The notes beneath the pieces are model-generated. The model was not told where the DNA came from. It saw only the letters and a list, made by a program, of their open reading frames with translations, and did no database searches. From positions 1-34,453 of the forward strand of contig JAAUUB010000017.1 in the NCBI GenBank assembly GCA_012031215.1: 34,453 nucleotides of DNA, given 5' to 3'. Source of the stretch: Microscillaceae bacterium (GTDB lineage: Bacteria; Bacteroidota; Bacteroidia; Cytophagales; Microscillaceae). This document shows positions 15,567 through 31,265 of the stretch, piece by piece (position 1 is the stretch's first letter; every line of letters starts with the position of its first letter). The translations under genes and the position numbers were made by a program.

Positions 15567-17789
15567 ATGAATACAAGCACCATTGATAAAATTATTGCCA
15601 AACTGGCGGAACTCTGCCAGCATGAGTTCAATTTTTTGACCTCAAAAATGACTATGTCGACAATCTCAACTTCCCGGCCGACAAGGTGGGGGATTTCATA
15701 GGACAGCTAACCCAAAAGGCTCAAAAAATCAACCTGGCTTTTTTGGAAAACCACGTTAAAAAAAATCAGTTGCCTGAGCTGATTCGCGTCTCAAATTTTC
15801 CAATTGTAGTCTTTCAGGAAACCCTTAATCGGGAAATCACGCCGATTGTGGTGTATAAAGATGGGCAAGAAAGGCTGCATTATTTCCAGTTTGAAGACGA
15901 AACGGAAATAAGGATTCAGGATATTTCGCAGTTTTATGATTCCTTGCTCACGTATCAAAATGCGGCCGACAAAGACAAAGAGGGGGATGTCATTTTCCTC
16001 ACCGTAGCCCCGCTCAAATATATCGTCAGTGATTATTTTCATCGCGAAAGCGGGGATGCCAAAAACCTCACGCCGCTCAATCGCCTTTTTCGGCTTCTAC
16101 GCAGTGAGCGCCGCGATATTGCCTACATTTATATCTATGCCGTGATTGTTGGTCTGATTAGCCTTACCCTTCCGTTGGGCATTCAGGCCACCATCAGCTT
16201 GATTTCGGGGGGGATGGTCTTTAGCTCGGTGATTGTACTCATCACCCTGGTCATTGTTGGAATATTGGTGGGTGGGGCCTTGCAGGTAGTGCAAATTTCG
16301 CTGGTAGAGATTTTGCAGCAAAGAGTATTTGCAAAGGCGGCTTTTGAGCTGGCCTTCCGGGTTACCAAAATCAAAGCCGAGGCAATGGAGAAATACTATC
16401 CTCCGGAGTTGATGAACCGCTTTTTTGATGTAGTAACCATTCAAAAGGGTCTTCCCAAGTTGTTTGTCGACATCACGGGGTCGGTTATCCAAATCTTGTT
16501 TGGCCTCATCCTGCTTTCGCTCTATCACCCTTTCTTTCTTATTTTCAGCATTGGTCTGATTACCTTCGTTACCTTCATTTTTTACTTCACCAGCCCCAAA
16601 GGTTTGAGTACCTCCATTATGGAGTCAAAATATAAGTACAAGATTGCGTATTGGCTGGAAGAACTGGCGCGGGTCATCTTTGCTTTCAAGCAGGCGGGCA
16701 ATACCAATCTGCCTTTGCAAAAAAATGGATGAACTGGTCAACAGCTACCTCTATTACCGCAAATCGCACTTCCGGGTGCTCATTACCCAGTTTTTGAATA
16801 TTGTCGCTTTCAAAACCCTGGTTACGGGCGGCCTCTTGATTATCGGTACCCTCCTAGTGGTAGATCGGCAGATTACACTGGGGCAATTTGTAGCCTCCGA
16901 GGTTATCATCATCCTGGTGGTGGGTTCGGTAGAAAAACTCATCATCAGTCTTGATACCATTTATGACCTGCTGACCGGGGTAGATAAAGTAGCCAATATC
17001 ACCGACTTGCCGCTTGAGCGTAACGACGGCTTGCGCATTGGCCTGGCCGACAACCCCAAAGGCCTGCACATTCGGGCCAAACATCTTAAATACCGCTACC
17101 CAGGCAGCAGTTCCTATGCCCTTAAAGATGTAAATTTTGAAATCACGGAGGGCGAAAGTGTTTGCATTGCTGGCCCAAGTAATTCAGGCAAACATACCCT
17201 GGTCAAAGTCTTAACGGGCGTACTGGAGCAATACGAAGGGCAAATTTCACTCAATTATCTTTCTCTCCGAGACCTCAACCTGGCCTCAGTGCGGGATGTA
17301 GTAAATAAACACCTGACTTTTGACGAAGTTTTTGATGGCAGCATTCTGGACAATATCACCATGGGGCGAAGCAACATCACCCACCAGGACGTAATCTGGG
17401 CCATTGAGAATGTAGGGCTAAGTGATTACATTGCTGAATTGTCCGAAGGACTAGCCACCAAAATTGGGCCATCGGGCAAGAAGCTCTCCAGCGGCCTGAT
17501 TGCCAAGCTTTTGCTGGCCCGCTCCGTTGCCTCTCGGCCCAAGCTTCTGATTGTCAATGATTTCTCGGAGCACCTTTCTAAAAATGAAAAGCTTAAAATC
17601 TTGTCTTTCTTGCAAGAAAAACAAAATGGCTGGACCCTAATCATCATGAGTGTGAGCGATGACCCAGTGCTGCTTTCATCCTGTGATAGAATTTTATTGA
17701 TGCGTGATGGCGAGGTAATTGCCCAGGGAGGCTACGAGCAGTTGTTGAGCGATCGTAATTTTCAGAAGTTAATTTTCAAAAGCCGCTAA
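15567..17789 (+). CDS. ABC exporter (membrane + ATPase domains) with altered ATPase motifs; two frame breaks
   Basis: This type I exporter half-transporter should work with the HlyD-type and TolC-type proteins that follow, like a type I secretion ATPase. The reconstructed protein has 740 residues. About 180 N-terminal residues lack a C39 peptidase signature; then come about six membrane helices (about 190-440) and an ATPase domain (about 500-740). Frame breaks lie in the T6 run 15632-15637 (one base missing) and the A7 run 16719-16725 (one base too many); correcting them gives EFNFFDLKNDYV and LPLQKMDELV. The ATPase motifs deviate: Walker A is GPSNSGKHT (His543 after Lys542), the signature is LSSGL (640-644), Walker B ends in VND rather than LDE (Asn664, Asp665), and SVSDDP stands where SHDP is usual. 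Related Bacteroidota exporters share part of this pattern. Confidence 0.85.
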
Positions 17790-17802
17790 ATTTAATTCAA
17801 AT

Positions 17803-19201
17803 ATGCTGGAAATATCGGATAAAAACTTTGATAGCGAAATGATTGAAAAAAAGGTCTATGCCTTGCGCACCATCCATACCCCGCGTACGGGCAAAGTGCT
17901 GGCTTATTGGCTGCTAGGCATTTTGCTTTTTATGCTAGTGTGTTTGTTCTTGCCCTGGCAGCAAAATGTAGAAGGAACGGGCAAGGTAACGGCCCTTAGC
18001 CCGCAAGACCGCCCCCAGGAGGTGAATACCGCCATTGCCGGAAGAATCAAAGAATGGCGTATTCAGGAAGGGCAATTTGTCAAAAAGGAGATACCCTGGT
18101 GGTGCTGGAAGAAATTAAAGCCGATTATTTTGACCCAGAACTATTGAAACGCCTGGAGGAACAACTCCAAGCCAAAACACAGGGTATCGGTGCCAATCAA
18201 CAAAAAATTCAGGCTTTGAACGCCCTGATTCAGGCCCGGCAGAGCGGACTACAGCTCAGCCTGCAAAAAGCCCGCAATAAATACCAGCAAGCCACCCTGA
18301 AAGTACGCATTGACAGTGCCGATTTTGAGGCCGAAAATTGGCCCTGCAAATTGCCGAACGCCAATATGGAAGTTATAATGATTTGTTTCAGGCCAATAAT
18401 AATGGGGATATTCCGCTTATTTCGCGCACCGAATGGGAAAAACGCCGCCAAAAGCTTCAGGAAGTGCAGGCCAAGCTGATAGGCAAAGAAAACAAACTGC
18501 TGGTCTCACGCAATGAACTCATCAATGCCCGTATTGAACTTAACTCACTGGAAGCCGAGTATGCCGATAAAATTTCCAAAGCCCAATCAGACCTGAGCAG
18601 CTCGCTGGCTACCCTGGCCGACAAAGAAGGCGACCTCTCAAAACTGCGAAATTATTATGCCAATATGAGCATCCGTAACCAGCAGTATTGTGTGGTGGCT
18701 CCCCAAGACGGCTATGTGGTCAGGGCCCTAAAATCGGGGGTGGGCGAAACCGTGAAGGAAACCAGCGCCATCTGCACCATCCAACCATCTGAACCTCGTG
18801 TGGCGGTGGAACTGTATGTCAAGGCCATGGATGTGCCCTTGATTTCAAAAGGCCGCACGGTACGCTTAGAGTTTGACGGCTGGCCCGCGCTTCAGGTGAG
18901 TGGCTGGCCCAGTGTAGCAGTTGGTACGTTTGGCGGTATTATCCAGGTGATTGACCTGGTAGATAGCAAAGAAGGCAAATACCGAATCCTGGTTACACCC
19001 GACCCACTCGAGCCCTGGCCCAAGCAAGTGCGAGTAGGCTCGGGGGTATATGGCTGGGTGATGCTGGACGATGTGCCCGTATGGTACGAAATCTGGCGAC
19101 AGCTCAATGGCTTTCCGCCCAGTCTGTATGAAGAGCCTTCCGAAGAGGACAGCAAGGAAAAGAAGAGCGACAAAAAAATTAAAATCAAAGTAAAAAGCTA
19201 A
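17803..19201 (+). CDS. HlyD-family membrane fusion protein (two frame breaks)
   Basis: Periplasmic adaptor that links the ABC exporter to the TolC-type channel. The reconstructed protein has 466 residues. A cytoplasmic N-terminus (1-33) and one membrane segment (35-51) come first. The first half of the lipoyl domain follows (about 56-107, with AGRIKEWRIQEGQFVKKGDTL-like sequence), then a long coiled coil (about 108-285). The second lipoyl half is VVAPQDGYVVRAL, and the end is a beta-barrel and a lysine-rich tail. Frame breaks lie at the GG pair 18087-18088 and the A4 run 18334-18337; restoring one base each gives VKKGDTLVVLEE and EAEKLALQIAE. It starts 13 bases after the exporter gene, so the two are tightly coupled. 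Confidence 0.87.
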
Positions 19202-19246
19202 ACGACTCAACAAGTATTTTGCTCCCCTGCCCCTCCCGGGCTTTTC

Positions 19247-19293
19247 CCCCGGGCTAAGCCGGGGAGTTGAAAAGTATGCTTTAAAAGTATGCG
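19247..19293 (+). repeat. GC-rich hairpin and direct repeat before the TolC-type gene
   Basis: The 87-base gap between the adaptor and TolC-type genes holds CCCCGG (19247-19252) pairing with CCGGGG (19259-19264) over a 6-base loop. After it AAAAGTATGC occurs twice (19271-19280 and 19284-19293). The second copy contains the TolC start codon; the first contains an upstream ATG in a different frame. It may tune translation of the third gene in the operon. Confidence 0.4.
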
Positions 19294-20731
19294 CCATACT
19301 ACATTTTTTAATCTGTTAATTATCTGCTTTTTCATCGGGTATCTTAGCCAAACGGCCATTGCGCAAACCAATACAAGGGTGCGGGATTTATCCCTGGAAG
19401 AATTCTATCGACAAATCCTGGCCTATCACCCCGTCGTGAGGCAAGCCAATCTGATGACCGAAATGGGCCGCCAGGAACTTCGAGTGGCTCGGGGTGGCTT
19501 TGACCCCAAAATCTCTTTTGATTACAGCCGAAAAGAGTTCAAAGGCACCACCTACTACAACCTGGTGGATAGCAAGCTGAAAGTGCCCACCTGGATTGGC
19601 GATTTGGAAATTGGTTACAACCAGTACCACGGCGATTTTCTCAACCCAGAACGCTCGCAGCCCGATGCCGCCGGCCAGGGCTTTCTCGGTATCACCGTTC
19701 CGCTGGGTCAGGAGCTAATCATGGATGCCCGCCGGGCAGTTTTGCGCCAGGCCCAATTCTTTCAGGAAATCGCCCGGGCCGACCGGATTAAAGAAATCAA
19801 TAAAATTTTGCTCAGCGCGGCCAAAGATTACTGGGAATGGTACTTTGCCTATCACCAATACGAATACCTGGACTCCGCCTATACCCTGGCCCGCCAACGC
19901 TATGAAGGGGTTGTGATATCGATACGGCTTGGCGAAACGGCACCCATTGATTCGGTAGATGCCCAAAGTGTGGTTCAAAGCCGCAATATTGAACGCCGAC
20001 AGGCGGAGGTAGAATTACAAAACGCCCGGATTCGGGTGTCTAATTACCTCTGGGGCGATAATGAAACCCCGCTTGTATTGGCCGATGACCTTGCCCCGGA
20101 AGACTTTTTGGGCCTGAGCGGGCGCCCCACCCTGCCCAACCGGGAAGATTTGCTCAATTTTGCCGCCCAAAACCATCCCGAAATTATCAAACTTGTCAAT
20201 AAGCTTAAACAATTGGCCGTAGAAGAACGCCTCCAACAGGCCAATCTTCTGCCCCGCCTCGACCTGAAATACAACCTCCTGCGTAATATCCAGAATGTTG
20301 ATGAGCAAACCAATCTGAATTTTCAAAACAATTATCAGTTTGGGGTCAATTTTGAAATGCCCCTCTTTCTACGCAAAGAGCGGGGCAAGCTCAATCAGGT
20401 GCGCATCAAACTATCCCAGGCCGATTTTGAACTGCTTCAATTGCGACGCGAAATTCTCAATGAAGTGGAAGCCGCTTATAATGAATTGCTCAACAGCCAG
20501 GCTCTGATACAATTGCTGGACGAGATTACGGAAAACTTTCGCATCCTGCGCGATGCCGAAGTACGTAAATACGTCAACGGGGAAAGCTCTCTTTTCCTGA
20601 TAAATGCCCGCGAAGCCAAGCTCATCGAGTCGCAGATAAAGCTGGAAAAGCAAAAAGCCAATTATGAAAAAGCCCGCGCAACCCTGCTCTGGACCTCCGG
20701 ACAGCCCTTCTGGGAGAACTTGCTGCCTTAA
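19289..20731 (+). CDS. TolC-family outer-membrane efflux protein
   Basis: Outer-membrane channel of the export operon. The 480-residue protein has a signal peptide (cleavage near AIAQ at 26). It then shows the two-fold TolC pattern: first helical half about 35-240 (LSLEEFYRQILAYHPVVRQA at the start, ERRQAEVELQNARIRV at the end) and second half about 270-475 (LPNREDLLNFAAQNHPEIIKL, YNELLNSQALIQLL, REAKLIESQIKLE). The repeated NHPE/YHPV motif at the start of each half is typical of the family. The frame is intact. It is third in the operon, after the exporter and the adaptor, completing a tripartite inner-to-outer membrane exporter. The substrate is unknown. Confidence 0.9.
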   Translation: MRHTTFFNLLIICFFIGYLSQTAIAQTNTRVRDLSLEEFYRQILAYHPVVRQANLMTEMGRQELRVARGGFDPKISFDYSRKEFKGTTYYNLVDSKLKVPTWIGDLEIGYNQYHGDFLNPERSQPDAAGQGFLGITVPLGQELIMDARRAVLRQAQFFQEIARADRIKEINKILLSAAKDYWEWYFAYHQYEYLDSAYTLARQRYEGVVISIRLGETAPIDSVDAQSVVQSRNIERRQAEVELQNARIRVSNYLWGDNETPLVLADDLAPEDFLGLSGRPTLPNREDLLNFAAQNHPEIIKLVNKLKQLAVEERLQQANLLPRLDLKYNLLRNIQNVDEQTNLNFQNNYQFGVNFEMPLFLRKERGKLNQVRIKLSQADFELLQLRREILNEVEAAYNELLNSQALIQLLDEITENFRILRDAEVRKYVNGESSLFLINAREAKLIESQIKLEKQKANYEKARATLLWTSGQPFWENLLP

Positions 20732-21069: not shown

Positions 21070-24000
21070 TTACTGCTTCACAAACTTAAGCACATGGCGG
21101 CGGCCATCGTGTTGAATGTGCAGGAAATAATTACCTGCCGCCAAATTTGCCACATCCAGTTTCAGCTCCACTTGTCGGGGGGCCAGGCGCTGGGCACTGA
21201 TTTCCCGTCCCCAGGCATCCAATATCCGCAGCCCCCCTGGCCGTGTTGCCGGGTAAGGGAGCACAATAGTAAGCCATTCGGTACTAGGATTGGGATAGGC
21301 CCGGAGGGTGGCCGTTTCATTCAAGTATTGTAGCACCACTATTTCCGAAAATTCCACCGTTCCGTCGCCATCTATTTGTTTCAGACGGTAATAGTTTTGG
21401 CCCACGGCCGGGTTGGTGTGCAAATGGGTATAAGCGGCCAGAACGGGTCCAAGATTGCGGGCTTCTATGGCCGCGATGCTTTCAAAAACCAGGGCATCGG
21501 CGCTATGTTCCAGCTCAAAATGGCTCACTTCCACTTCGTTGTAAGTCAGCCAGCGCAGAATAGCCTGGCCATTCTCCATTTCTCCCGTAAAGCTGAGCAG
21601 CTCCAGCGGCAGCAATCCAGTATCCCCAAAATCTCCAAAACCAAAGTCGTCGCCATCAGCCGCATCTTTGATGCCATCGCCATCATTATCGCTGCCATCT
21701 ACCCGGCCATCGTTGTTTTCATCCAGGGTCGAGCAGCCAATAGAGCCGCAGTTTTCATCAATATCGTTGAGACCATCCCCATCCCGGTCTAAGTCTAAGT
21801 AATCTGGTATTGAATCCGCGTCTTCATCCGGTTGGGCATCGGTATCTCCTGTGCCGGTTACTTCGCCAAAATTACCTGGGTCTTGATCTACGACATCAGG
21901 AATACCGTCATTGTCGGCATCCGGGCCGTCAATCAGGCCATTGCCATCTCCGTCTAAAATTGTGGCGTGGCCCTCAATCACATCATTGAATCCATCGTCA
22001 TCCGAATCTAAGTCGCGGTAATTTGGCACGCCATCGCCATCAGCATCATTGGGATTGGGGTCGCCACTGTCGCCAAAAACAGAAGGATTGCCGTCCACCA
22101 AATCGCGGATACCGTCCCCATCCGCATCGGGGGCATCTACCAGGCCATCTCCCAGGCCATCTCCATCGGTATCAAGCGTAGCGAAGGTGGTGGGATAATT
22201 TTCTTTAAGGTCGTTGATGCCGTCATTGTCCGAATCCAGGTCTAGGTAATCGGGTACTCCGTCGCCGTCGGTATTGCGGGTGCTGCTGGTGGCATTTGGC
22301 CGGACTCCGTTGGCATTGGATACGCCATTGAGGATACCATCGCTATCCGCAATGACAATACCCGCCTCAACCAGGTCGTTGATGCCATCATTGTCGGAAT
22401 CGAGGTCGCGGAAGTTGGGGACATTGTCTCCGTCTTTGTCAAAGCCAGTGTAGGTACTGGGGGCTTGCCCAAGGGTGCCTTGGCTGGTGATGGGCGAAGT
22501 GCCGCCTTCATTGCCATCGCGGCTGCTCAGCCAGCCATTGTTGTTGGGGTCATTGCTGGCAAAAGTACCCCCGAAATCCAGGCGGCCATCATTGTTGGCA
22601 TCCGTGCCTCCGCTTTCGGCCACGTCAAAAATCCCATCATTGTCGGCATCTATATCCAAATAATCCGGGATGCCATCGCCATCCGTATCGAGGGCGCGGG
22701 CATTGCCCGTGTTGTAATAGAAGCCGTTGTTGGCAATCAAGGCGGTGAGTTTTGAAAAGCCACTGGCGGTTTCACCTCCGTCAATCAAGCCATTATCGTC
22801 AGTATCGCCTGTATCGATATTATCAATCAAGCCATCATTATTGGCATCAGCGGCATTGGCATCGGCCTGGGCAAAATCCAGTCGACCATTTCCATCGTTG
22901 TCAATGCCTCCGGCTTCAATCACATCGGGCAGGCCGTCATTATCGCTGTCCAGGTCCAGGTGGTTGGCAATGCCGTCGCGATCGCGGTCAAAATAATCCA
23001 GAATGCCGTCATTATTGCTGTCGGTAGTCGGAATGCCGCCACCGGGTGTGGTATCTACATAATTGGGCGTTCCGTCGCCGTCGGCATCGCCATCCGGGTC
23101 AAAACCAGCCTGGCCAGTAGCTTCAAAAATATCCAGAATACCGTCATTGTCATCGTCAATATCCTCACTGTTGGCAATGCCATCGCCGTCGGAGTCATTT
23201 CCACCCCCAAAGCTGGCCGGTTGGCCATCCGCCTCTCCCACGATGCCATCGCCATCTGGGTCAGAGGGATTGTCGATGATGCCGTCAAATAATGGATTGG
23301 TATCCAGTGGATTACAACCATTTGAGCCGCAGGCCTCATGAATATCAAATATACCATCCCCATCACTGTCAAGGTTACGGTAATCGGGAAGCCCGGCAGC
23401 CCCTCCGGCTGTATCATCGGGGTTCGGGTCGCCGCTATCCCCAAAAGTTCCGGGGGTATCATTGCCATCCACACTGTCGCGAATGCCATCGCCATCCGTG
23501 TCAATTCCATCTATAATGCCATCTCCATTCAGGTCAAATGCGCCATTGCCCCCTTCTACCACATCCAGAATGCTGTCATTGTCGCTGTCCAGGTCCTGGT
23601 AATCGGGTACACCATCGCCATCGGTATCCACCGGACCCGGGTCATTGTTATCGCCAAAGGTTCCGGGGGTATCATTACCATCCACACTATCGCGAATGCC
23701 ATCACCATCCGCATCGCCACCGTCCACCAGGCCATCGCCATTGGTATCCAGGTCGGGCGTATTGGGGTGGCCTTCAATCACATCATTGATACCATCGTTG
23801 TCGCTGTCCAGGTCGCGATAATCGGGGGCTCCGTCGTTGTCTGTATCCTGGAGAGTGCTGTTAGCATCGCCAAAGACCAAGTCATTGTCATCTACGTTAT
23901 CCAAGATACCGTCCCGGTCGGCATCAGAGCCATCCACAAGTCCATCGCCATTTCCATCCAGGTTGCCATTACCCCCCTCAATGACATCGTTGATGCCGTC

Positions 24001-27000
24001 ATTGTCGCTGTCAAGGTCGCGATAATCGGGGGCTCCATCGCCATCTGTATCCTGCGGTGGGGTGTCGCCTGTGTCGCCAAAAGTGTTGGGGGAAGCATCT
24101 ACCAGGTTCAGGATACCATCTCCGTCATCATCGGCTCCATCCACGAGCCCATCGCCATTGGCATCGGCAGTAAAGTTATTGGGGAAGGCTTCGTTGACAT
24201 CGTTGATGCCGTCATTATCGCTGTCCAGGTCGCGGAAGTCAGGAATGCCATCGCCGTCGCGGTCATTGGGAGCAATATTGGCATCGTCCCCAAAGGCACC
24301 CGCGTTACCATCGGCGGTTCCCCGGATACCGTCGCCGTAAGGGGTTTCAATATCGCCCGCGCCAACATCTACCAGGCCATCATTATCCGCATCTGTTCCG
24401 CCACTTTCGCGCACGTCGTTGATGCCGTCATTGTCGCTGTCCAGGTCGAGGTAGTCAGGCACAGTATCGCCGTCAGTATTGGCGGGGCTGTTAAATGCCC
24501 CGGAGCGGATACCATCGGTATTGGAAGTGCCACCCAAGATGCCATCCGTATCATTGGCCACCAGCCCGGCCTCGATGATGTCATTGATGCCGTCATTGTC
24601 GCTGTCCAGGTCGCGGAAATTGGGCACACCGTCGCCGTCCTTGTCAAAGCCTACATAGGCCGCGGGTGCATTGCCAATAGTGCCGGTAGTGGTGATGGGG
24701 GAAACACCGCCCACATTCCCATCGCGGGTATCAATCCAGCCATTGCGGTTGGTATCATTGGAAACAAAAGAACCGGCAAAATCCAGGCGGCCATTGTTGT
24801 CGGCATCGTTTCCGCCCGATTCTATCACGTCAAAAATGCCATCATTGTCGCTGTCCAGGTCCAGGAAATCGGGCACCCCGTCTCCATCGGTATCGAGGGC
24901 GCGGGCGGGTGCGGTGGTATAGTAAAATCCGCCGTTTCCGGTCAGGGAAGTTAGTTGAGAAGTAGAAGCAATGTTTGCCTCGATGTTGTCAATCAGACCA
25001 TCATCATCTAAATCGGCCTCATCGGCGGTCGGCTCGGCAAAATCCAGGAGACCATCGCCATTGGCATCAATGCCCCCCGCTTCCACTACATCGGGCAGCC
25101 CGTCGTTGTCGCTATCCAGGTCAAGGTGATTGGCAATGCCATCGCGGTCACGGTCAAAAAAATCGACCACGCCATCATTGTTTAGGTCGGCCACACTCCA
25201 GGCAGGGGCTAGGGCATAGGATTTATCCAGGTAATTTGGAATGCCATCGCCATCCTGGTCGGCACTGGGGTCGGTTCCAGCCTGACCGGTGGTTTCAAAA
25301 ACATCCGGGATGCCATCATTGTCATCGTCAATGTCTAGGTTATCGGCAATGCCATCCCCGTCCGAATCACTGCCATCGCCAAATTGCCCGGCATTGCCAT
25401 CGGCACCGCCCACGATGCCATCGCCGTCGGGGTCGGTGAGGTTGTCCACCCGGCCATCATTATTGGTATCCAGGGCGGTTTGTCCGGCGGGTTCGTCAAT
25501 GTCGTCCGTGCCATCGCCGTCGCTGTCTAAGTCACGGAAGTTAGGCGTGTTAGGAGCTGTGCCACTGTCGCTGTCGGTAGCCCCGGGTACACCTGCGTCG
25601 CCCCGGCTGGAAGGGTTGCCATCGGCTATACCCACAATGCCATCGCCATCGGGGTCGGTGCCATCTACTTGCCCATCGCCATTGAGGTCAAGATTGACTT
25701 CTGCGCCATCAATCACCCCGTTGCCATCCGTATCGGCATTTTCGAAGACATCATTCAGACTGTCGTTGTCGCTGTCCAGGTCGCGGTAATCAGGCACGCC
25801 ATCACCATCGGTATCCGTAGCTTCTGGGTCGCTGGCATCGCCAAAAGCCCCATTATTGCCATCTACCCCATCACGAATGCCATCATTATCGCTATCGCCC
25901 CCATCTACCAGGCCATCGCCATCACCATCCGGACTGCTCCCCGAAGGAAAACCCTCCACTACATCATTGATACCGTCATTATCACTGTCGAGGTCGCGGA
26001 AATCCAGCACGCCATCGCCATCTGTATCAAGGGTATTGTCGTTGGCATCGCCAAAGGCATTGTCATTGCCATCGGCGGCATCGCGAATGCCATCCCCGTC
26101 CACGTCGGTTCCATCGATGAGGCCATCGCCATTGTCATCCTGGCCGGCAAAGCCACCTTCTATCACATCATTCAGACCATCGTTATCACTGTCAAGGTCT
26201 CGGTAATCGGCCACGCCGTCGCCGTCGGTATTGGCGGGCCCGGGTCATTGTTGTCGCCAAAGCTGTTGGGCGCGGCATCTACATTGTCTTTAATACCATC
26301 ATTATCGGTGTCGGGTCCATCTACAATCCCATCGCGGTTGGTGTCGGGGCATTATTGCCCGCTTCGGTCAGGTCATTGATGCCGTCATTGTCGCTGTCCA
26401 GGTCGCGATAGTCAGCCACGCCATCGCCATCGGTATCGGTGGGGGCTGCATCTCCCTGGTCGCCAAAGGTACCATTATTGCCATCTACCAAATCTCGAAT
26501 CCCATCGCCATCGCTGTCAGTGCCATCCACAATACCATTGTTATTGGTATCAAAAGCCTCGAGGTTGGCTTCGCGAATGTCATTGATACCATCATTGTCG
26601 GAATCTAAATCAAGGTAATCGGGCGCCCCGTCGCCGTCGGTATTGCGGGGGTTATTGCCATTGATAACGGCAGTGGGCTTGCCATCGGCATCCACAGCCC
26701 CATCCACAATGCCATTGTCATCATCGGGATCAATGCCTGCCTCAACAATGTCGTTGATGCCGTCATTGTCGCTGTCCAGGTCGCGGAAATTGGGCACATT
26801 ATCCCCGTCTTTGTCAAAGCCGTTATAGCCTGCGGGGGCCGAACCAAGGGTTCCCGTAGTAATGATGGGCGAAGTGCCCCCATTGCCGCCGTCGCGGCTG
26901 TCAATCCAGCCATTGCCATCCGTATCATTGCTGGCGAAGGTGCCGCTAAAGTCTATCCGGCCATTGTTATTGGTGTCGGTGCCGCCACTCTCTACCACAT

Positions 27001-30000
27001 CATAGATACCGTCATTATCGGAGTCAATATCCAGGAAGTCGGGCACGCCATCGCTGTCGGTATCCAGGGCACGATTCACGCCAGTAGTGTAATAGAAGCC
27101 CCCGTTGGCGGCGACCGTGCCATCGATTAAAGTGGTGAGTTTGGAATCGGAGGCCACATCGGCGGTTTGGATATTATCTATCAGGCCATTATTGTCCGCA
27201 TCGGCGAGGTCGGCATTGGCTTGGGCAAAATCGAGGATTCCGTCGCCATTGGCATCAATGCCGCCTGCCTCCACTACATCGGCAATGCCATCATTGTCGC
27301 TATCGAGGTCCAGGTGATTGGGAATGCCGTCATTGTCTTTGTCAAGCGAGGCTACTACCCCAAAACTATTGAGTTGGCCAAAGTCGGCCTCCACATAATT
27401 GGGTACTCCATCGCCATCCGCATCGGCACTGGGGTCCACGCCGGCCAAATCGCTTGCCTCAAAAATATCAGGAATACCATCGTTGTCGTCGTCCAGGTCG
27501 ACGGCATCGGCCACGCCATCGCCGTCGGCATCGCCGCCATCCCCAAACTGGGTCGGGCGACCATCGGCTCCGCCCACGATGCCATCGCCATCCGGGTCGG
27601 TGAGGTTGTCTATCCGACCGTCATTGTTCGTGTCCAGGCTGCCATTTCCGGCTTCATTAATGTCATTAGAGCCATTGTTATTGCTGTCCAGGTCGCGGTA
27701 GTCAGGTTCGTCTGTGCCATCACTGTTTTGCACAGAAGAAGGCAAGGAGCCCGAGTCCCCAAAAACACCCACATTGCCATCGGCACTGTCGGGAATGCCA
27801 TCACCGTCATTATCACTGCCGCCCGCATCCTGGCTGTTGATGAGGCCATCGCCATTGGTATCGAGGCCGCCATTGCCGCTTTCTACCACATCATTGATGC
27901 TGTCGTTGTCGCTGTCGAGGTCCAGGTAATCAGGGGCTGTATCGCCGTCAGTGTTGACAGGGGTGGGGTCGGAAGCATCGCCAAATCCGGAGTTATTTCC
28001 ATCGACAAGATTCATAATGCCATCGCCATCCGTTTCTGCGACAAAGCCAGTATCGCCAGCTCCTATCACCCCATCGCCATTGGTATCAGGACTTGTCCCG
28101 GAGGCAAAGCCTTCAATGACATCATTGAGGCCATCATTATCGGAATCTAAATCACGGAAATTAAGCACTCCATCGCCGTCGGTATCCCGGACTTCTCCTA
28201 TGCCGATGGCCAGGGCATCCCCAAAAACAGTCGGCGTGCCATCCACAAAATCGGCAATGCCGTCGCCATCGGCATCGGTGGCGGCGTCCCCGATGTCAAA
28301 AAAGCCATTGTTATTGGTATCGAGGGCATCATTACCGCCTTCGACCAGGTCATTTATTCCGTCATTATCGCTGTCGAGGTCGCGGAAGTCATAAACGCCG
28401 TCGCCGTCTGTATCAAAAGGCGTCGCATCATTTTGATCGCCAAAGTCGAGGTTATTGCCGTCGGTCAGGTCGGGTAGGCCGTCATCGTCGGCATCGCCCC
28501 CATCCACAATGCCATCGTCATTGGCATCAAAAAGGTCAGGATTGAGGCCATATTCTATCAGGTCATTGATGCCGTCATTGTCGCTGTCGAGGTCGAGGAA
28601 ATCGGGCTGATTGTCATTATCGGTGTCTACGGGGTCGCCGTTAGGGTCATTGTCCACAAAGGCGGCCGGGTCATCATAGAGAATGGCTCCCCCGTCAGTG
28701 CCGCTTTCAATAAAATTGGCCAGGCCATTGGCTCCATAAGGGCCATCGGCAATGCCGTTGTTATCAGCATCGGCAGAGGCAATTTGGGTGGCGGTCAGGC
28801 CACTTTCACGCAGGTCATTGATGCCGTCATTATCCGAATCCAGGTCAAAGTGGTTGGGAATGCCATCGAGGTCTTTGTCAAAAACATCCAATACACCATC
28901 CGCATTCACATCGGCGGTTGAAATACCTCCCCCCGGGCTAGGGTCTAAGAAGTTGGCTACTCCGTCTCCGTCGGCATCATCTGCGGGGTCCACACCCAAG
29001 CCTTCTTCTACATCGGTGATGCCATCATTGTCATCATCAATATCCCCCAGTTCGGGGCCGGCTCCATCGGGGTCTGTGTCTGGAATACCATCCCCGTCGC
29101 GGTCGCCGATGACGGCAAAGTCGATGTTGTTGCTATAATCGCATTCGGGCTGGCCGTAGTTCTCAATGGCAATAGGGGTTTCTGCGCCATCATTATTAAT
29201 GACGGCATAGAGAGTAAAAGCGCTGGTAAAGGTAAAAGGGAAGTCATGATTGACACTCAGCGTTTGCCCCGGATTGACAAACTCGGCCAGGGTAAAGTTT
29301 GCATTGGGAATAATCGTGCCCCCTGTTGCCGGATTGCCATTGAAAAAGGAAACCTGCATCCCCGGCGCCAGGGCCGTTGCCGCCGCACTGGTATTGATGA
29401 TTTCCATGTTAAGGGTGATACGAGCATTGCTTACATTGATGGCCGAAGCATCAATGTCGATAGAAGCATCGGCGGCAGGGAAGATAAAGGAACCGTCTTT
29501 GTCAAAAAGGGTGGCCTGCACCAGGAAGTTATTGAGCGGAATCCCGGCGGAGAAGGCAATGGCGTGGTTTTGCTGCTGACGGGGTATGGTGAGGTCATCA
29601 TTGATGTTGACCACAAAATAAGCGTGTTGATTCCAAATCTTGCGAGCTGGTGCCCAGGGGCGAGAAGGGGACTGATAAAGTCTTACATTACCGCTTTGGT
29701 TGGTAGCCACTCCGCAAGTAACGCAGATTTCTGCAGCACCATCTCCGTCAGCATCCACAATAATTGGAGCTTCATTCCCTGTACCAGAAGTGCAAGCAAA
29801 AGTAGCTACATTACTTGGCGCAACCCCATCTGCACTACCATCCAATATTCTAATATCAGTTTCATCCCGATACACAATTTCATAATTTCCATCCTGGTTA
29901 AAGTCAAAAAGAGTTAAGCCTGTCTCTCCTGAATCATCACTTGTATTTAATTGCCATTTAAGTTCAAGTGTCGTGGTGCCATTAAAACGGTAAGCAAATA

Positions 30001-31265
30001 CACGATTACTGCGGCAAACCCCAATTTCAGGAGTACCATTGTTATCCATATCGCCAATGAAGGGGGCTCCTGTTTTGTTAACCAGTCCAACCCCATCACT
30101 TCCAAGTGTTGTCTGCGCAATCAGGGCTCGGGTGCGAGGATCCCAAACAAATAATAATCCGGGATTCCCTTGTCGAGAAACGACAATATCCAGTTGATTA
30201 TCTTCATTCATATCTGCTATGGAAGTAAACCCATCACCAAAACCTGGACCTAATCCTCCTCCGCTTAGCAAACTGTGGGAAGTAATAGTATTTCCTGCTA
30301 AACCACCTGTATTGGTGATGTGCACTTCATAAACAGTAGTTCCTGCGATTAACTCTAAATTACGATTATCATTCCGATTATAGTTGCATCTCGGACATCA
30401 GCAGCGGTTACTATGCTTACACTTCCCAATAAAGGAGAGGCTTCGCTTATAATGCCAACATTACCCGCGCCTCCTGCACCTAATAATTTAACCCCAGTTT
30501 GAGCATTGAATATTTCATCATAAATATACACCTCTGGAATTCCATCTCTATTAAAATCTGCCAAGCCAAGACTGCCGCCATACCTATTCGTACGACCTGT
30601 CCCAAACTGTACATCTGAAATCCATTTTTCTGTACCATCGTGTTCATAGCATACTAGCCGACCTGCATAAACAGCTGTGTTTATTCCATTTGCAGTCGCA
30701 TCTGTTCCTGGCCCAAGTGCTGCGATGATTATTCGCCTTCTGGGTCGGCATCTATGTTACCAACAACAATAGCCATTGGAGCAGACCAAGCCATGAACGG
30801 GGTCGGAATAAGCAGTTCCTCTTGCCCAGATTGTCCATTAAGGATTCGAATGCCAGATGTGCGACGTACTGTTAACGTGCTATAGCCCGTCCCCCCCATT
30901 GTAATTACCTCAGGAATGCCATCGTTGTCTATATCGGCAACTAAGGGTGTGTTATAAGTTGGAATAACATTTCCATTGCTACTAATCCATTGAGGCTCAA
31001 TGGAAAAATCAGAAAAACCCGCCGTATAAAGACATTCTGGGGTGCAAATTCCGAAGAAATTGTCGTTTTCGCAGGCACAGTCGGGGTCAAAAAAATCGAC
31101 GAATCCGTCCAGGTCGTCGTCTAGGCCATTGTTGCAGATTTCCTGGGCCTGCAAGGCCAATAAGGAGGAGGAACAAAAAATAAAAACAAGGCCAGCCAGG
31201 AAATCCGCCCCCCGGATTGCCCACAGAACAGATAAGAAGAATGGGTAAATGTCATCTTTGGTCAA
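21070..31265 (-). CDS. Giant T9SS-secreted protein with FG-GAP-like and thrombospondin type 3 repeats (at least four frame breaks)
   Basis: Predicted cell-surface or secreted, calcium-binding protein of about 3,400 residues. A signal peptide ends near LQAQ (about 41) and is followed by [12 protein letters not shown], a short Asp-rich motif. FG-GAP/VCBS-like blades follow to about residue 500 ([38 protein letters not shown]), then a CARDB-like beta domain (to about 700). The Asp-rich array of 34 type 3 units covers about 720-3215. A beta-sandwich-like segment starts [11 protein letters not shown], and the last 82 residues are a T9SS type A sorting domain (AYPNPSTEW to LKFVKQ). Frame breaks are near 30730, near 30389, in the G4 run 26346-26349 and in the G3 run 26236-26238. 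One restored base at each gives a continuous frame. The start is a TTG at 31265; an ATG at 31255 becomes usable if one more base is restored in the A6 run 31175-31180. Confidence 0.88.
21073..21318 (-). other. T9SS type A C-terminal sorting domain (Por secretion tail)
   Basis: The last 82 residues of the giant protein begin [20 protein letters not shown] and include [25 protein letters not shown] and the closing HVLKFVKQ. This is the pattern of the Por_Secre_tail family, which directs export through the type IX system and is removed or anchored at the cell surface. Confidence 0.9.
21626..23157 (-). repeat. Type 3 repeat super-module 4 (7 units, ~510 residues)
   Basis: Opens with [15 protein letters not shown] and keeps units 1-5 and the unit 3 insert ([26 protein letters not shown]). 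One middle unit follows and then the closing unit ([15 protein letters not shown]) with a CGSIGC cysteine pair. It runs directly into the C-terminal LLPLELL segment. Confidence 0.75.
23158..25329 (-). repeat. Type 3 repeat super-module 3 (10 units, ~724 residues)
   Basis: Same unit order as super-module 2: [12 protein letters not shown] opener, [19 protein letters not shown], the insert with [12 protein letters not shown] and [14 protein letters not shown] after unit 3, an NDS ninth unit ([14 protein letters not shown]) and a DSDGDG tenth unit ([10 protein letters not shown]). A CGSNGC cysteine pair occurs in the closing unit. The frame is intact. Confidence 0.8.
25330..27493 (-). repeat. Type 3 repeat super-module 2 (10 units, ~722 residues)
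   Basis: Opens with [13 protein letters not shown] and the [16 protein letters not shown] linker. Unit 2 is [19 protein letters not shown], unit 3 is followed by a long insert ([14 protein letters not shown], then [14 protein letters not shown]), unit 9 is the NDS unit and unit 10 has [12 protein letters not shown]. Two of the gene's frame breaks (26236-26238 and 26346-26349) fall here; the length assumes one base restored at each. Confidence 0.8.
27494..29038 (-). repeat. Type 3 repeat super-module 1 (7 units, ~515 residues)
   Basis: It begins with the [13 protein letters not shown] unit and ends with an NDS unit ([16 protein letters not shown]) and a degenerate closing unit ([15 protein letters not shown]). 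Closing sequence [13 protein letters not shown] leads into the next module. Compared with modules 2 and 3 it lacks three middle units. Confidence 0.75.

Follow-up and report, generated by a model that had tools for sequence, protein, structure and literature searches.

A putative giant surface protein in a Microscillaceae genome with a TSP3-like stalk of four ordered modules

The window, by which we mean the whole stretch of 34,453 nucleotides analysed here, carries on its minus strand (31265-21070) a gene for a giant protein of about 3,400 aa. We consider it likely that this is a very large surface protein secreted by the type IX system (T9SS), in which a head of FG-GAP propeller type precedes a stalk of four modules, with 34 thrombospondin type 3 (TSP3)-like units in all, and a sorting tail closes the C-terminus; and that modules 2-4 were duplicated and have stayed similar in each lineage, module 1 having preserved its identity across families. 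Proteins of this kind are already known; giant TSP3 proteins are widespread in Bacteroidota and beyond, but have been treated as plain repeats. The nested, lineage-homogenised architecture is apparently new, and we have found no description of it in the searchable literature. The protein is laid out as follows.

29078..31265, minus strand: N-terminal part, with a signal-peptide-like start, a motif of 16 residues (letters not shown), an FG-GAP-like propeller head and then a beta-type domain
27533..29077, minus strand: module 1, seven TSP3-like units, 515 aa (an opener and a diverged unit 2, then generic units and an NDS unit before the closer)
25369..27532, minus strand: module 2, ten units, 720 aa
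23197..25368, minus strand: module 3, ten units, 724 aa, in a single open frame
21604..23196, minus strand: module 4, seven units, 531 aa (an opener and units 2-4, then two generic units and a closer that has a Cys pair)
21070..21603, minus strand: C-terminal region, type IX secretion type A sorting domain

The array lies in two long frames, 30325-26321 (1334 aa) and 26214-21070 (1714 aa), and was translated piecewise, each piece in its own frame and with no base restored. At least four frame breaks were seen in the gene. Two of them, one-base breaks at about 26346 and 26244, fall within units 6-7 of module 2 and affect this module by a residue or two at most. Two more, likewise of one base (near 30732 and 30360), interrupt the N-terminal part, where a hydrophobic, signal-peptide-like start is legible at about 31265-31140, with its frame and exact start codon uncertain. 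Adjoining the giant gene on the plus strand (window positions 15686-20731) is a type I-like exporter row, also with probable assembly frame breaks, that includes an ABC exporter whose ABC_membrane and ABC_tran halves lie in two frames that overlap, a TolC-like OEP and a membrane-fusion protein split over three frames.

The units are about 70 aa long and each has an Asp-rich core of the type DxDSDNDG. Aspartate makes up 23.8% of the array, which contains 80 strict and 124 looser DxDxDG motifs in 2502 aa. The core count and the openers both bear out the arrangement of 34 units in modules of 7-10-10-7 that had been proposed in the first-pass annotation, and the DDDNDG openers were found exactly where it had placed them (29038, 27493, 25329 and 23157), the first D of each opener lying 6 nt upstream (29044, 27499, 25335 and 23163). 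Its module lengths stand with small changes, the 510 residues given for the last module (now 531) differing by where the end was drawn. Each module is an ordered set made of an opener (u1), the specialised units u2-u4, generic units that are interchangeable, an NDS unit and a closing unit. Unit 2 carries the HLDL that had been noted, replaced by HFDL in module 1; the linker GFDKDGD..PNFRD that had been read before unit 4 in modules 2 and 3 appears in module 4 too, and in modules 2 and 3 unit 9 has NDS and unit 10 has DSDGDG (DSDGDGT and DSDGDGI), as reported. The NDS variant is confined to the penultimate unit of modules 1-3, both in the window and in the relative G022 described below. The only cysteines of the array, four in total, form C-x4-C pairs in the closers of module 3 (23316-23331) and module 4 (21735-21750), and the closers of a second relative, G011, carry the same pair. 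An intra-repeat disulphide needed for calcium binding has been described for the TSP3 structure of OmpA (according to the title of Dai et al., 2017, as cited in PMC12045341), and for this reason the C-x4-C pairs may be locking points of the stalk.

The order of the units is also reflected in their similarity. Mean identity between units is 0.585 at a lag of 10 and 0.562 at a lag of 20, against about 0.39-0.46 at other lags and 0.44 overall; a signal as strong as that at lag 10 (z 10.2) did not arise in 2000 random reorderings of the units. The ten-position diagonal between modules 2 and 3 was unreached in 200,000 permutations, and for the generic units 5-9 of these two modules the true order was the single best of the 120 possible. 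In the maximum likelihood tree of the 34 units, clades by position were recovered for u1 in all four modules (100/96), for u2 (99/98) and u3 (100/99) in modules 2-4 and for the closer in modules 1-3 (97/96), so that the predicted clustering by position rather than by neighbourhood holds for these four kinds of unit. In the same tree M1u05 pairs with M2u08 and M1u03 with M2u05, and the remaining generic units show no resolved grouping. Identity of u3 between modules reaches 73%, and the module copies are about 70-75% identical in DNA.

Higher-order periodicity of this sort is frequent in TSP3 arrays. Among 50 arrays of at least 12 units each, namely that of the window and fetched loci sampled non-randomly with a query from the window protein, 22 were significantly periodic (p < 0.01) at lags of at least 3, where about 0.5 would be expected; their best lags span 3-10, the longest being common to the window and G022. 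The grammar of the array, from opener through specialised units, generic run and NDS unit to closer, is machine-readable and common to different families, and shows up as higher-order periodicity in many arrays. Giant TSP3 proteins of Zobellia, Cellulophaga and Polaribacter (L055, L086, L066 and L078) are likewise built of periodic units, with best lags of 3, 3, 4 and 6, but their module length and unit order differ from those of the window. Strong periods were also seen in further giant arrays, of 6 units in L073 and L050, 4 in L088 and 9 in L101, besides the 4 of L066 and 6 of L078.

Direct Pfam scans missed the array: TSP_3 did not match the window's own (first) two-unit query, no TSP3 was detected in the two long frames of the window, and a TSP_3 search of the own genome gave none in the array and two short matches elsewhere. 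Kinship was therefore drawn from a profile of many units. Taking unit pairs of the window and its relatives together, TSP_3 was found in 28 of 88 and TSP3_bac in 27 of 88, and the profile of unit pairs matches the TSP3 chains of COMP, Capnocytophaga OmpA and BamM. A two-unit model (pLDDT 93) gave six top Foldseek matches that are all TSP3 proteins (thrombospondin-1, OmpA, COMP, BamM), the best with an E value of 2.7e-5; the TM-scores are low (about 0.2), as could be expected if a rod has another curvature, and back the local fold only. The prediction for a full module (seven rows) was uninformative (pLDDT 41), and the rod form of the stalk is plausible as a prediction.

Animal TSP3 stretches are short and disulphide-rich. 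The array resembles those of thrombospondin-1 and COMP in its Asp-rich DxDxDG loops and little regular secondary structure, and differs from them in its 34 units of about 70 aa, its ordered modules and its mere four cysteines. The same kind of repeat forms linkers in outer-membrane proteins such as Capnocytophaga OmpA, F. johnsoniae BamM and Myxococcus TraB; unlike the array, these linkers are short, with few repeats and without modules. The TSP3 of OmpA is reported to bind calcium (Dai et al., 2017, as cited in PMC12045341); for the window protein, its TSP3 kinship and its motifs suggest that calcium may bind and stiffen it. There is local repeat similarity to the Myxococcus cohesion proteins MtsC and MtsD (NF047638, NF047639), amounting to 62.7 bits over 10 stretches for MtsC, while the window protein differs from both in having a T9SS tail. 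Membership in these families was rejected, with 62.7 bits against a cut-off of 350 for MtsC and 17.5 against 800 for MtsD.

Among the 57 relatives examined, the long form of the protein was found in G022, from another family of the same order, and in G011, of the same family; it is thus known from three genomes, one of them as a fragment, and its lineage history rests on few sequences. The search of the own genome returned no second array of this kind. The G022 copy lies on a 913-kb contig as one intact open frame (3533 aa). It has the FG-GAP head of the window protein and modules of 7-10-10-9, and its unit types read P1 Q2 g g g S E / P1 P2 P3 P4 g g g g S E / P1 P2 P3 P4 g g g g S E / P1 P2 P3 P4 g g g g g. 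The G011 fragment reads S E / P1 P2 P3 P4 g s S E / P1 P2 P3 P4 g g g S E (partial, ..-8-9). The profiles behind these types were trained on the arrays of the same three genomes, and serve to display the order, not as an independent test of it. Module 4 varies in length, with 7 units in the window, 9 in G022 and 9 in G011. Unit 2 of module 1, recognisable by a stretch of 11 residues (letters not shown), pairs between the window and G022 with 100/100 in a reduced tree and 99/92 in the full one; it adjoins the u2 group in the reduced tree with modest support (89/85) and may be a diverged u2.

The outer modules had been taken for shortened versions of the inner ones, which is at most half right: it fails for module 1, since G022 also has a first module of 7 units, and only module 4 varies in length. 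Module 1 is an old, separate module without u3 and u4, and no recent truncation. For modules 2-4, the trees point to a more complicated history. When u1-u4 of these modules were concatenated, the modules grouped by genome (window 97/96, G011 100/99, G022 more weakly at 92/88), and AU tests rejected a union of same-numbered modules from the window and G022, with p-AU values of 0.0055 (module 2), 8e-5 (module 3) and 3e-5 (module 4). Within-genome pairs of modules uniquely share 10-14 columns versus 1-9 across genomes, and genome-specific indels recur at equal positions of u1, u2 and u4 in all three modules. Because modules 2-4 cluster by genome and not by number, they have been re-duplicated or homogenised in each lineage. 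That the array grew by duplicating module-sized blocks is upheld for modules 2-4, but not as one event simply inherited since.

None of this is recent. Where residues are identical, codons agree 1.10-1.20 times as often as expected between modules, against 1.10 at unrelated positions, so that silent sites are near saturation, and the idea of a recent duplication of the modules was rejected on these data. Any homogenisation must also be slow, since in two Zobellia species the best match of 24 of 30 units is still the unit of the same number (mean identity 0.92).

The history may have been that of an inherited array homogenised per lineage or of one re-expanded per lineage, and we make no firm choice between the two. 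One reading, at somewhat under an even chance, is module-by-module concerted evolution in a single bacterial surface gene. A four-module stalk would have been inherited, modules 2-4 would have been homogenised in each lineage, and module 1, the unit order and the rough total length would have been conserved, so that recombination and mechanical function alike would act by whole modules. A quite possible alternative, although we would not bet on it, is that the common ancestor had only module 1 and one ten-unit module, which each lineage separately copied to three. Independent copying would account for the grouping of modules 2-4 by genome and for the lengths of module 4 (7, 9 and 9), but both lineages would have had to reach the same 7-10-10-x plan. 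Moreover, unit M2u07 has retained its pairing by module between genomes (97/91), suggesting an identity of module 2 from before the split, which a single ancestral module could also give.

The frame breaks, at least four across the gene, raise the question of whether the array is a relic in a pseudogene. We regard this as improbable though conceivable. The breaks are probably sequencing or assembly errors, since the neighbouring genes (ABC exporter and membrane fusion protein, 15686-19201) are split alike and the G022 copy is intact, and between the breaks the frame stays open for 1334 and 1714 codons. Still less credible is a functional convergence, with position-specific residues imposed by selection on the rod and no duplication of modules; the silent sites, almost without excess similarity between modules, would agree with it, but the shared linkers, the genome-specific indels in u1, u2 and u4 and the identity of u3 would be hard to reach in this way. 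That the module pattern comes from a repeat collapsed or expanded in the draft assembly (306 contigs) is the least credible of all, as the module copies are too different in DNA to confuse reads and the same plan stands on the 913-kb contig of G022.

In the reading that we favour overall, T9SS would export the protein and the sorting tail would be removed during its anchoring to the cell. The stalk, probably stiffened by calcium, would then hold the propeller head away from the surface, with a putative role in adhesion or cell-cell contact. Modules 2-4 would have arisen by module-sized duplication and been held alike per lineage by re-duplication or, as the candidate mechanism, intragenic recombination, and module 1 would have kept its own identity across families. 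A parallel is the aciniform spidroin AcSp1, an unrelated protein in which large coding repeats are also kept alike in one gene, a likeness attributed to intragenic concerted evolution, although its repeats are >98% identical in DNA (PMC3933166) against the much lower figure for the window modules. The array would parallel, in a bacterium, both higher-order repeats and the homogenisation of silk genes, and offers a route to asking if selection acts on the length of the stalk or on the identity of its modules.

The C-terminus of the protein is a T9SS type A sorting domain (PF18962 Por_Secre_tail, E 1e-7, 32.6 bits against a cut-off of 27; TIGR04183, E 7e-8, 32.3 bits against a cut-off of 23), one of 45 such tails in the genome. 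The head matches PF13517 FG-GAP_3 (E 1e-11), and its residues 124-253 also match the solved chain 6mlt_A, deposited under the name hemolysin-related protein; this match concerns one domain of the head only, and we see nothing that points to a toxin function. Within the order, a search with the head found it in 38 of 390 genomes. We inspected ten more of its frames, full or partial and in some cases running off their contigs, and saw no comparable TSP3 array in them (one has three cores); head and stalk therefore look like separable parts. In the locus L173 of G006, of the same family, a related head (48%) is followed by cadherin-like sequence in place of TSP3. The G006 head is less similar to that of the window than is the G022 head (54%), from another family, which may hint at transfer or paralogy.
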